Assembly: GCA_017881795.1 (NCBI GenBank)
Contig: JADGQM010000003.1
Span: forward strand, 1 to 41,525
Length of the DNA: 41,525 nt
From: Syntrophobacteraceae bacterium
GTDB lineage: Bacteria > Desulfobacterota > Syntrophobacteria > Syntrophobacterales > Syntrophobacteraceae
Direction of reading: 5' to 3'
Every line of letters starts with the position of its first letter. The first letter of the stretch is position 1. The notes under the pieces were generated by a model. That model made no database searches. It worked only from the letters and a program-made list of their open reading frames with translations, and was not told the origin of the DNA. The position numbers and the translations under genes were made by a program. Below are positions 26,997 through 34,556 of this stretch, one piece after another.

Positions 26997-27296
26997 ACTT
27001 TCCTCACATTAATTCAGGCGCTATGAGTGCATTATCAACTGTTACACGGCTGCGCTCGCTGGAAAGCCACCGGAGCTTCAGGCCAACGGGCTTTCTGCTC
27101 ACAATACCAAGCGCAAGTAAGGCTTTGCACTGTATCTAAGCTTCATCTTGCACACCCGATGAAGCCATGTCAAAAGATTTATCACTGGCTTTTGAACGAA
27201 AAACCTCTCCCCTTTATTTCCTTGACCCAGATTAATGATATTGCATATTAAGTGATCGTTCGAGCACAATTGAAAACCATGGTTAAGGAGTTTCAT

Positions 27297-27932
27297 GTGA
27301 TTGCAATTTTGGATTATCGAGCTGGCAATTTAACGAGCGTAGAAAGAGCCTTGCGCTTTCTCGGGTTTCCTTGTGAAATCACGGATTCAGCGGAGCGCAT
27401 CAGGGCGGCGGAACGGATTATTTTTCCGGGCGTCGGTGCAGCGGGCAAGTCCATGCAGGATCTGAGTGAACTGGGCTTGGACTCGCTTCTTCATGAGCGG
27501 CTGGAAGCCGGAGTCCCGATTCTGGGCATTTGCGTGGGCTTACAAGTGCTTTTTGACTACAGTGAAGAAAACGACACGAAATGCCTCGGCATCCTCCCTG
27601 GAAAAGTGCGGCTGTTCCCCGCAGAACTTCGCGATGAAGATGGCAATCTCTTAAAAATTCCTCACATGGGCTGGAACGAGGTGATCTTCACCCGGGAGCA
27701 TCCCGTATTCCGAAAGGTGCCTCCTGGGAGTGAGTTCTATTTTGTCCATAGCTATTATCCCGAAGCGAGTGATCTAGCGTGTGTTGTGGGAAGGACCGAT
27801 TACGGAATTGCTTTTGGTTCGGCTGTGGCCCGCCGCAATCTGGTGGCCGTCCAGTTTCATCCGGAAAAAAGCGGCCCTCCTGGGCTCCAGATCCTGAGCA
27901 ATTTTTGTCAATGGGATGGGCTCGATTCCTGA
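27297..27932 (+). CDS. hisH: imidazole glycerol phosphate synthase glutaminase subunit HisH
   Basis: [19 protein letters not shown]...[13 protein letters not shown]...[17 protein letters not shown]...HSYYPE...[25 protein letters not shown] start at 27297 follows AAGGAG. Confidence 0.95.
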
Positions 27933-28008
27933 AAGCAATTACCGCCCGCGCCCGGATCGAAGAGCCCCTCGAACGGGCCTTCTTTTTGACATAAACAAAG
28001 GAGATTAC

Positions 28009-28788
28009 ATGCTCAGTAAACGGATTATTCCCTGTCTGGACGTCCGGGATGGACGGACCACCAAGGGGATTAAGTTTAGAAATAATATTGACATTGGTGA
28101 TCCGGTTGATATGGGCCGGTACTATTATGAAGAAGGCGCTGATGAAATCGTCTTCTATGACATCACGGCATCGAGCGACCGGCGCCCCATCATGCTAGAG
28201 GTCGTAAGAAGGGTTGCGGAAACCATTTTCATCCCGTTTTCCGTTGGCGGCGGCATTCGCACTCTTGAGGACATGCGCGATGTCCTGCTTGCGGGCGCCG
28301 AGAAAGTGAGCGTCAACTCGGCCGCAGTGCTCAATCCGGGAATTATCCAGCACGGAGCGAAAGCTTTTGGAAGTCAATGCATCGTCCTAGGCATGGATGT
28401 GAAGCGGGTCCCGCCATCGGCGAAAATTCCGTCGGGATACGAGATGGTCATCAACGGCGGGCGCTCTCCCATGGGGATTGATGCCCTCTGGTGGGCACAG
28501 GAAGCCGAGCGGCTCGGGGCCGGAGAAATCTGCCTCAACTCCATTGATGCCGACGGCACGCAAAATGGTTATGAGCTAAGTCTCACTCACCTGATTTCAA
28601 CAAAGGTGCGCATTCCAGTCATCGCTTCCGGGGGAGCAGGCGGACCGCACCACCTCCTCGATGTGCTTTCGGAAGGACGCGCCGATGCGGCTCTGATAGC
28701 TTCGATGGTTCACTACGGAACTTATACGATAAGGGAGATCAAGGAGTTCCTTCAAGGACAAGGCGTTAGAGTGCGACAAACCTGGTGA
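28009..28788 (+). CDS. hisF: imidazole glycerol phosphate synthase cyclase subunit HisF
   Basis: [23 protein letters not shown]...[35 protein letters not shown]...[22 protein letters not shown]...[11 protein letters not shown]. Confidence 0.95.
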
Positions 28789-31377: not shown

Positions 31378-31470
31378 TTGGCATCTCCTTGTGGCAGATG
31401 GTGGTGATCATGGGGCAACACGGGTTATAAGCAGGCATGGAAATACTACAAGAGCGTGATCGGCGGGCGC

Positions 31471-31684
31471 CCCCTGGTACTCGACGCTTCCGGCTCACCA
31501 TAACCCGGGGAGCTCCACAATGTTGTTGAATTAACAATTCAGGATTAAGGAATTCAGGGATTGGATTTGCCAAACCAGGACAATCTCTACCTTGCGCCGT
31601 AAGAATTCCTCAATTCCTAAATCCCTCAATCCAACAGCATTGGGGGAACTCCACCCCCGTTGGAGCGTCCAGCACCAGAGGTCC
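31471..31684. repeat. long imperfect palindromic intergenic element (second copy of the CCCCAATGYYGKTGAATT-arm family)
   Basis: Arms gggagctccacaatgttgttgaattaa (31508-31534) and caatccaacagcattgggggaactcca (31626-31653); outer arms ctggtactcgacgcttcc / tggagcgtccagcaccag; inner arms aaggaattcagggattgga / tccctcaatcc. Confidence 0.75.
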
Positions 31685-31746
31685 ACTATACAGCATAGAT
31701 GAAAACGAACATCACCGGAAGGGAGATGATGCAGGCGACGATAAAG

Positions 31747-31956
31747 CTAGTGGTGTCCCCCTTCGTCCCCGTGTTTCAAGCGTTTAAACGTTAATATGGC
31801 CGCCGCCAGGAGGCCAAATCCGATCACCCCCACGGCGCCGTAAAGTGCTGCAAAGAAGACCGTATGGCTGGGATCATACCACGGAATGTCCTGAGGCAAC
31901 GCGCTGGCAACGCTACGTTTGAGCTCCACACATAAAAATTCGCCGAATGGTGACAT
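31747..31956 (-). CDS. small single-TM hypothetical protein
   Basis: MSPFGEFLCVELKRSVASALPQDIPWYDPSHTVFFAALYGAVGVIGFGLLAAAILTFKRLKHGDEGGHH: one TM helix, positively charged/His-rich tail; no overlap with better ORFs. Confidence 0.6.
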   Translation of the reverse strand: MSPFGEFLCVELKRSVASALPQDIPWYDPSHTVFFAALYGAVGVIGFGLLAAAILTFKRLKHGDEGGHH

Positions 31957-32213
31957 AGCACAACTCCTCATTGAAAAAGACGGTTACCGGCAGCTCTTCA
32001 AATTCGTGAAACCTTTAGCAAAGATTTCCGGATGGGTCAATCTCAAAAGTCATGCCTGCAGGTCCATTCACTCTTTGTTCAGCCGGAGCGCGAGTTTATT
32101 TTACAACGCAACGCCTGGATCGAGGAAAGGCTTTGACACCGAGCCACGGGACTGCCTATAAAGTACGGGTTGGCTGAGGTTGCTTTACGAGGTACAATTC
32201 TGAAGCAGGAAAT

Positions 32214-34556
32214 GTGCTCACCATGAAAAACGTTTTCTCCAATGTTTTGGAAGCCATCGGCAATACCCCGCTGATTCGTATCAACCGCATGAATCCCAAC
32301 CCGAAAGTTACCCTTTTCGTCAAATGGGAAGCGAAGAATCCCGGAGGATCGGTCAAAGACCGACCGGCCCTCTCCCTTATCGAGGCCGCAGAGCGAGAGG
32401 GGCTGCTCACTCCTAACAAAATTATTATCGAGGCCACCAGTGGCAACACGGGTATCGGCCTGGCGATGGTAGCCGCGGTCAAGGGGTACCGAATCGTTTT
32501 GGTGATGCCCGAGACGGCCAGCCTGGAGCGTCAAAAGATCCTCAAGGCCTTCGGCGCTGAATTGCTGCTGACACCAGGAAACAAGGGAACGGATGGCGCC
32601 ATCGAAGAAGTCTACAACCTCGTGCGGGAAAATCCGGATCTTTATTTCATGCCGGATCAATTCAACAACCCAGCCAATCCTGCGGCGCACCATGAGCATA
32701 CGGGACCGGAAATCTACGAGCAAACTGACGGGAAAGTCAACGTCGTCGTCGTCACCCTGGGTACGACGGGAACCGCCATGGGTATCCTTCAGGCCATGAA
32801 GGAACGGGACCCGGCCATCCAGGTCATCGGCGTCGAGCCCTATCCCGGGCACAAGGTCCAGGGTTTGAAAAATATGAAGGAATCCTACGTACCCGGGCTT
32901 TTTGACCGCCATGCTCTGGACGGCGTGGTGAATGTCAAGGACGAGGAAGCCTTCGAAATGGCCCGGCGGCTCGCGAAGGAAGAAGGGATCTTTGCCGGGA
33001 TGAGCTCCGGGGCGGCAATGGCTGCCGCAGTCCGCATCGCCGCAGAGCGCGAAGACGGCATGGTCGTAACCATCCTCCCGGACGGCGGCGACCGTTACCT
33101 GAGCACTAACCTCTTCACGACCTTGCTCGAACCCGATTTCCGCTTCTATGACCTGATGCGTCGAGAGAAAGTTGACTTCAAACCAGTCCAGGAGGGCAAA
33201 GTGCGCATTTTCGTGACTGGCCCTCCGTTGGACAAACTCCTTTCCTTGCAGGAATTGCGTCGTTTCCTCCTGGCTGATCTCCTGACCCGCTTTCTCCGTT
33301 CCAAATCATTTTCGGTGAACCAGGTGGTGCTGGCTCCGGATCTTGACGGCCGTGCCATTCTGGGCTCGATCGCGGCAAACATGGAACACGCCGCCTATAC
33401 GCAGCAGCAACTGGAACAATTCCTGAGCGACCTGGACCAGATTGGAATCCAGAGGGCTTACAATTGTCCTCGCACAACTGAGCACATCGATACCATCATC
33501 GAGTTCACCAAGTCTCTCATCAAGAAAGGCATGGCCTACGAGAAGCTGCGCTCCGTTTATTTTGATCTTTCGAAGAGCAGTAATTATGGAGTCCTCTCCC
33601 GGATCGATCCCAAGAAGATCCGCTTAGGGAAGACGGTGGATTTGGAGGCCTACGAAAAGCTCAATCCAAGGGATTTCACCCTGCTTAAGCGATCTACTCT
33701 GGCGGAACTGAAGCGGGGGGTCTATTTGAAAACCGACTGGGGCAACGTGCTTCCGACCTGGCATATTGCTGCCGCCGCGGTGGCAATCCACGATCTGGGA
33801 GCTCCCATCGACATCCACGTGAGCAGCGTAGATTTCCTTTTCCCTCATCTGGAGAATCTCCGCGAGATCGGCGAGACGGTCACCGGCAGACCCTTTGCCA
33901 ATATTTGGATGCTCTGCGAACGGATCTGGTCTTCACAGCAGGAAAAGGACGAAAGACATCTCGATGAAAACGTCTCCGTCAGAGAATTTATCGCCGCCGG
34001 TTATAGTGCTATGGAGATTCGCTACTGGCTGCTAAATACTCATTACCGCAAACCCATCCACATCACTTCCGAGAATATTCTCAATGCCAAACGCGGCTAC
34101 GAACGCCTGAAGGAATTCATCAGTCGCGTCCACCATGCGCAAAGCAACAAACAGGAAAACAGGGTTATCCCCGAAATGACTTACGCCCTCGAACAGAGCT
34201 TCCTCGATGCCATGGCCGATGATCTGAATATGCCTCTCGCCCTGGCTGCACTCTTTAAATTCGTCCGGCAAGCCAATCCCATCCTTGATCGGGGAGACTT
34301 TAATGAGGCTCAGCGCAAGCAGGTTCTGGATGTTCTGAAGAAGTTAAACGCTCTTATGGGAGTTTTCGATATGGAGCTCCAGCCCCTGACGGTGGAGGAA
34401 AGGGATTTGATTCAAAGGCGCGAGGAAGCAAGAAAGGCAAAAAAGTGGGCGGAAGCGGACCGCATCAGAAAAGACTTACAGGAGCGTGGGCTGAGGGTGT
34501 TCGACACCGCGACGGGCACCCGGTGGGAGCACCTGTGTGACCCGCACCCCGGGTAA
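32214..34556 (+). CDS. cysteine synthase (CysM-type PLP enzyme) fused to a catalytically degenerate cysteinyl-tRNA synthetase-like region
   Basis: N-terminus IGNTPLIRINRM...KNPGGSVKDRPALSLIE...TSGNTGIGLAMVAAVKGY...GTTGTAMGIL...GMSSGAAMAAAVRIA...ILPDGGDRYLST; C-terminus aligns by eye with CysRS (GKVRIFVTGPP..., RTTEHIDTIIEFTKSLIKKGMAYE, DIHVSSVDFLFPHLEN, GRPFANIWM, ADDLNMPLALAALF, AKKWAEADRIRKDLQERGL). GTG 32214 or ATG 32223 start. Confidence 0.93.
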   Translation: MLTMKNVFSNVLEAIGNTPLIRINRMNPNPKVTLFVKWEAKNPGGSVKDRPALSLIEAAEREGLLTPNKIIIEATSGNTGIGLAMVAAVKGYRIVLVMPETASLERQKILKAFGAELLLTPGNKGTDGAIEEVYNLVRENPDLYFMPDQFNNPANPAAHHEHTGPEIYEQTDGKVNVVVVTLGTTGTAMGILQAMKERDPAIQVIGVEPYPGHKVQGLKNMKESYVPGLFDRHALDGVVNVKDEEAFEMARRLAKEEGIFAGMSSGAAMAAAVRIAAEREDGMVVTILPDGGDRYLSTNLFTTLLEPDFRFYDLMRREKVDFKPVQEGKVRIFVTGPPLDKLLSLQELRRFLLADLLTRFLRSKSFSVNQVVLAPDLDGRAILGSIAANMEHAAYTQQQLEQFLSDLDQIGIQRAYNCPRTTEHIDTIIEFTKSLIKKGMAYEKLRSVYFDLSKSSNYGVLSRIDPKKIRLGKTVDLEAYEKLNPRDFTLLKRSTLAELKRGVYLKTDWGNVLPTWHIAAAAVAIHDLGAPIDIHVSSVDFLFPHLENLREIGETVTGRPFANIWMLCERIWSSQQEKDERHLDENVSVREFIAAGYSAMEIRYWLLNTHYRKPIHITSENILNAKRGYERLKEFISRVHHAQSNKQENRVIPEMTYALEQSFLDAMADDLNMPLALAALFKFVRQANPILDRGDFNEAQRKQVLDVLKKLNALMGVFDMELQPLTVEERDLIQRREEARKAKKWAEADRIRKDLQERGLRVFDTATGTRWEHLCDPHPG

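Follow-up and report, generated by a model that had tools for sequence, protein, structure and literature searches.

The window, a 41,525-nucleotide stretch of a Syntrophobacteraceae genome (contig JADGQM010000003.1), bears a single open reading frame at positions 32214–34556 of the + strand, the strand of every feature of the fusion described below. In this frame a PLP-dependent cysteine synthase is joined to a full-length module that resembles cysteinyl-tRNA synthetase (CysRS). An earlier description made from the letters alone (hereafter the sequence-only reading) had reported one uninterrupted frame of about 780 residues, and translation from the GTG at 32214 indeed gives 780 amino acids with no interruption. 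Orthologues align from MKNVF, however, which makes the ATG at 32223 the more probable start. The sequence-only reading had proposed a Pfam call for PALP, tRNA-synt_1e and DALR_2; all three were detected (at residues 12–290, 322–626 with 173 bits, and 663–718, respectively), together with CysS_C at 725–771. The fusion has no conserved gene neighbours of note, and no Rfam families or tRNA genes were found within the window. About 800 bases 5′ of the frame (31408–32213) have no evident gene and no Rfam match. Elsewhere in the window, at 27252–28788, a glutamine-amidotransferase and HisF-like pair sits next to genes for an epimerase and a phosphomannomutase-type enzyme; the pair resembles some surface-sugar clusters and is perhaps not part of a histidine operon.

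The synthase half (32247–33116; PF00291, 248 bits) scores 381.9 bits against the CysKM model TIGR01136, above its cut-off of 344, and falls under the cut-offs for CysM proper and CysK proper. As had been claimed, it is a complete CysM-type PLP enzyme: the GGSVKDR lysine (32343), TSGNTG (32436), GTTGT (32760) and SSGAA (33003) are all present, and the PLP catalytic residues are kept in 104–105 of 106 fused proteins. The substrate loop, GLKNMKES in the window (32862–32885), carries an insert in the fused enzymes, which read GHKxQGLKNMKESYxP where stand-alone CysK proteins of the same genomes read GPHKIQGI---GAGFVP. In M. tuberculosis CysM, Arg220 is the residue that binds the phosphate. That arginine lies within ALRNMDE (numbering from 3dwi) of a protein deposited as an O-phosphoserine sulfhydrylase, and by motif it matches the first lysine of the fused loop, which is invariant in 105/105 fused proteins. 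E. coli CysM has an arginine near this position too, yet is known as an O-acetylserine enzyme; the loop alone is therefore no proof of O-phosphoserine use.

To number the synthetase module, we used as a ruler the E. coli CysRS sequence, in which C28, C209, H234, E238, K266, K269, R427, W432 and D436 sit at their literature positions. Aligned to it, the module (33129–34532) has lost HIGH (H37 to S344, H40 to E347), three of the four Zn ligands (Cys28 to T335, Cys209 to A520, Glu238 to L549) and both KMSKS lysines (K266 to E577, K269 to R581). The changes at Cys28 and HIGH fall within 33216–33254 (T335 and S344–E347) and those at KMSKS within 33942–33956. The former Zn and cysteine pocket between them (33759–33860), where A520 and L549 lie, keeps W205 and H206, and it also keeps the fourth ligand, His234, as H545. 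The histidine that has become leucine in the motif FPHLEN is the neighbouring H235 (L546), and the first histidine of that motif, His234 itself, is retained in 106/106 fused proteins. The earlier claim that the HIGH, KMSKS and Zn residues are erased thus stands for HIGH, KMSKS, Cys28, Cys209 and Glu238, and fails for the Zn histidine. These losses are not private to the window: across its order neither H37 nor the KMSKS lysines survive, and C28, C209 and E238 are missing from 37/37 proteins. Displaced copies of HIGH or KMSKS were considered and rejected, as the alignments leave no candidate for either.

Despite scoring 267.6 bits against the CysRS model TIGR00435, under its cut-off of 340, the module retains the CysRS fold, the DALR domain (34200–34367; PF09190, 42.3 bits) and the anticodon-binding C-terminal domain (34386–34526; PF23493, 29.5 bits), as judged by Pfam and by an AF2 model. 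The module modelled alone reached a pLDDT of 86 and a pTM of 0.81. Its best structure matches are CysRS, among them 8qhp, and the match to CysRS crystal structures, the tRNA-Cys complex 1u0b being one of them, spans the entire module. Domains and model thus agree with the view that the C-terminal half follows the CysRS core and anticodon-side helices, and the comparison with CysRS–tRNA complexes that had been suggested gives a full-length match. AF2 of the full-length protein from four sequences gave a pLDDT of 52, at which the two halves cannot be placed relative to one another.

The sequence-only reading had supposed that similar fusions may exist in relatives, and they are widespread. With the module as query, the fusion was found in 54 of the 57 genomes of the window's class, one of these copies being cut by a contig end, and was absent from three. 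Among 396 genomes sampled from the phylum Thermodesulfobacteriota, a 17-sequence profile found it in at least 150, a count made by hand from the matches listed, down to 398 bits; nearly all of these frames are 740–930 amino acids long, and some of the few shorter ones are cut by contig ends. A contig scan with the window protein alone and strict patterns returned five loci. Named carriers are Syntrophobacteraceae, which NCBI places in Thermodesulfobacteriota, and one Desulfobacterales MAG. Sharing on this scale is more than chance; the fusion is common to many sulfate-reducing and syntrophic bacteria, and the protein family is old. It is also easy to overlook, since annotation scores it as an ordinary cysteine synthase or a partial cysteine–tRNA ligase. 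In a FastTree phylogeny, a single clade unites 105 fused modules and contains no canonical CysRS (support 0.69), suggesting that they are likely monophyletic, and the synthase halves group apart from stand-alone CysK (support 0.81, with six stand-alone sequences). Chimeric assembly was rejected as an explanation, given that single-contig genomes carry the fusion.

Across the 106 fused proteins, the catalytic motifs form a series that runs from near-intact (CGPT..HLG, WHIEC, FPHHENE, KMSRS) through partial to fully erased. Some near-intact relatives exceed the TIGR00435 cut-off, and about half of the fused modules phylum-wide keep C28, C209 and H234, most of these with E238, plus W205. The K269 site, by comparison, is changed in almost all of them: the second KMSKS lysine is replaced in all but two of the 106 proteins, those two also lack an intact KMSKS, and so no fused protein carries one. 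The minimum number of changes over the fused clade is 4 for C28, 3 for C209, 7 for E238, 9 for H37 and 7 for K266, versus 1 for R427 and 0 for D436. Catalytic residues have therefore been lost repeatedly within the fused clade, and with forms from near-intact to dead in one clade, the evolutionary path from synthetase to regulator can be tested directly.

The last two residues of that comparison belong to the anticodon reader. In the E. coli complex, R427, D436 and W432 contact the anticodon base G34, and R423 does so via water (PMC12684709). These four, with R439 and D451, correspond to R736 (R423), R740 (R427), W745 (W432), D749 (D436), R752 (R439) and D764 (D451) of the fused protein, and all six are kept there and in 37/37 of the fully eroded modules of the window's order. 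We scored these 37 proteins for the 108 residues invariant in canonical CysRS. The anticodon domain keeps 7/7 and the connective region 17/24, whereas the catalytic and KMSKS parts keep 4/27, 8/32 and 4/12 (anticodon domain against the catalytic parts, 7/7 versus 16/71; Fisher p = 9e-5). The anticodon domain is otherwise variable, with a mean column identity of 0.47, and three of the four G34 contacts are among its seven near-invariant columns while the fourth stays aromatic. These residues could be kept for folding, though they are the RNA-recognition residues in 1u0b. With the catalytic residues gone and the anticodon readers kept, the pattern favours tRNA-Cys over cysteine as the module's ligand in the window's clade.

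Erosion of the catalytic motifs is not decay. The dN/dS ratio is 0.04–0.16 along the module, against about 0.05 for the synthase half, showing strong purifying selection on the module, and a pseudogene or decaying fusion was rejected because the frame is open in nearly all orthologues at these ratios. The pocket of the window's order has clade-specific fixed residues (T335, D340, T515, F541 and L546). Fixed residues of this kind combined with low dN/dS argue that the pseudo-active site is selected for something new rather than drifting.

The sequence-only reading had suggested checking whether a separate canonical cysS always co-occurs, and one was present in 30/30 fused genomes tested; no separate CysRS was seen in three fragmentary MAGs of the class (G012, G013 and G016), which incompleteness can explain. 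In one single-contig relative (G014, contig C1) the canonical cysS appears split into residues 1–104 and 103–465 at 4550729 and 4276118, about 274 kb apart, through assembly error or rearrangement. Outside the window, the same genome also carries a third CysRS paralogue of 430 amino acids (contig C192, locus L002, 1162–2454, − strand), in which a HIGH-like motif and KMSKS are kept, the Zn ligand Cys209 is Asp and the anticodon domain is missing, the mirror image of the fused module. This paralogue scores below both the cysS and the MshC cut-off, and most genomes of the family have frames like it.

The genomic context also bears on the substrate. Among 29 fused genomes from across the phylum, cysE occurs in exactly 10, all 10 of which have stand-alone CysK. 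In 18 of the 19 genomes that lack cysE, nothing but the fusion exceeds the CysKM cut-off, and these are fusion-only genomes without serine acetyltransferase; the remaining one, G181, has a further match below the cut-off (p = 5e-7 for the overall pattern, ignoring relatedness). Most of families f2 and f3 in the window's order show the same pattern. SerA, the entry to O-phosphoserine, is encoded by 23 of 24 fused genomes picked for lacking both cysE and any other CysKM protein over the cut-off. Because cysE is absent, O-phosphoserine is the likeliest substrate, and the synthase half is most likely an O-phosphoserine sulfhydrylase, a prediction drawn from sequence. Both stand-alone CysK and cysE-like genes are present in the window's own family, one of the latter in the window's genome itself, which makes the fusion a second route to cysteine in that family and not the sole one.

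In the model that we infer, down to its substrate, its tRNA-Cys binding and its direction of regulation, the synthase half would make cysteine from O-phosphoserine and sulfide, and the pseudo-synthetase would no longer activate cysteine but would still bind tRNA-Cys through its kept anticodon-reading domain. Most simply, the module would sense uncharged tRNA-Cys and adjust synthase activity; otherwise it may hold the synthase next to the Cys-tRNA pool. We give an even chance to this reading of the protein as an O-phosphoserine sulfhydrylase whose dead CysRS module binds tRNA-Cys and so regulates or localises cysteine synthesis. It preserves the core of the earlier proposal that the dead CysRS is a tRNA- or cysteine-binding regulatory module and sharpens it toward tRNA-Cys; cysteine is the less likely ligand in the window's clade. 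A bolder version, which we advance tentatively and regard as somewhat doubtful, is that the phylum's main cysteine maker is a tRNA-Cys-gated O-phosphoserine sulfhydrylase whose dead CysRS reads anticodon and charging state, with no need of transcription or of a free-cysteine sensor. If true, an amino-acid biosynthetic enzyme would be controlled by its own tRNA via a built-in dead synthetase, and cysteine making in these anaerobes without serine acetyltransferase would be explained.

Other functions for the module have to be weighed against tRNA-Cys binding. It might be a structural scaffold, determining the oligomeric state or anchoring the synthase to canonical CysRS or another partner, with tRNA uninvolved. 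The catalytic fold of the module is as conserved as the enzyme half (dN/dS 0.058 against 0.055 in genus g10), and R350, S447, R493, K500, G502 and K613 are invariant specifically in fused proteins, as an interface would require. Yet a scaffold gives no reason for the anticodon readers to be kept best in a domain that otherwise varies, and we consider it rather unlikely. We rate lower still a cysteine sensor that exerts feedback control through the old amino-acid pocket. It has a precedent in HisZ (PMC9734150), and the roughly half of fused modules that keep most of the Zn site and W205 would suit it; in the near-intact lineages, cysteine sensing is as plausible as the tRNA-Cys reading. In the window's order, however, the loss of C28, C209 and E238 in every protein should make Zn-based cysteine recognition fail.

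The remaining alternatives would have the module take part in chemistry. That the PLP half acts on aminoacyl-tRNA-Cys brought by the synthetase half, making cysteine on the tRNA in the manner of SepCysS, would agree with both the kept anticodon readers and the O-phosphoserine-like loop, but it sits poorly with a canonical CysRS in every fused genome tested. Moreover, the PALP fold is known for acting on free amino acids and differs from the SepCysS fold, and we think this reading very improbable. The same canonical CysRS speaks against a still active synthetase whose fusion channels cysteine onto tRNA. Relatives with near-intact motifs above the TIGR00435 cut-off (G060 with 463 bits, G155 with 457) speak for such activity, but these carry KMSRS or other KMSKS variants, and the window's order is without HIGH, KMSKS and three Zn ligands; we judge it slightly more improbable again. 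The least probable of all, and one that we rejected, is a persulfide-producing activity, which the sequence-only reading had listed as an alternative. E. coli CysRS makes cysteine persulfide with PLP bound at the lysines of KIIK and KMSK, namely K73, K76, K266 and K269 (PMC10655014), and in the window's order practically no protein retains any of the four.

We found no description of such a fusion in the open-licence literature. HisZ and GCN2 are comparable to the predicted tRNA-Cys-binding regulator. GCN2 of eukaryotes is a kinase with a HisRS-like domain, a dead synthetase domain that binds tRNA and controls the enzyme domain in the same chain; in the fusion, the enzyme controlled would make the cognate amino acid itself. 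HisZ is a class II protein and has no anticodon-binding domain. The fused module differs from it in being a class I CysRS in one chain with its enzyme; its amino-acid pocket is destroyed, and its anticodon reader survives. What the two share is a dead synthetase attached to the enzyme that makes its cognate amino acid: in HisZ–HisG (ATP phosphoribosyltransferase), a dead synthetase paralogue regulates how its own amino acid is made (PMC9437257, PMC9734150), although HisZ forms a subunit of its own and binds histidine. On the synthase side, M. tuberculosis CysM (3dki) is likewise a PLP cysteine synthase that has both the insert in its loop and, at position 220, a basic residue. That enzyme is without a synthetase module, whereas the fusion has lysine in place of arginine and its substrate is predicted. 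MshC, the CysRS paralogue of mycothiol synthesis, shares the class I CysRS fold, and its structure 3c8z is among the matches to our model. MshC is, however, an active cysteine ligase, and the fused module keeps the anticodon domain and scores 98.5 bits against TIGR03447, far under the cut-off of 485. Finally, CysRS* of Desulfobacterales, a CysRS paralogue from the same phylum, lacks an anticodon domain and charges SelC* (PMC9437257); the fused module is the reverse, having kept the anticodon domain.
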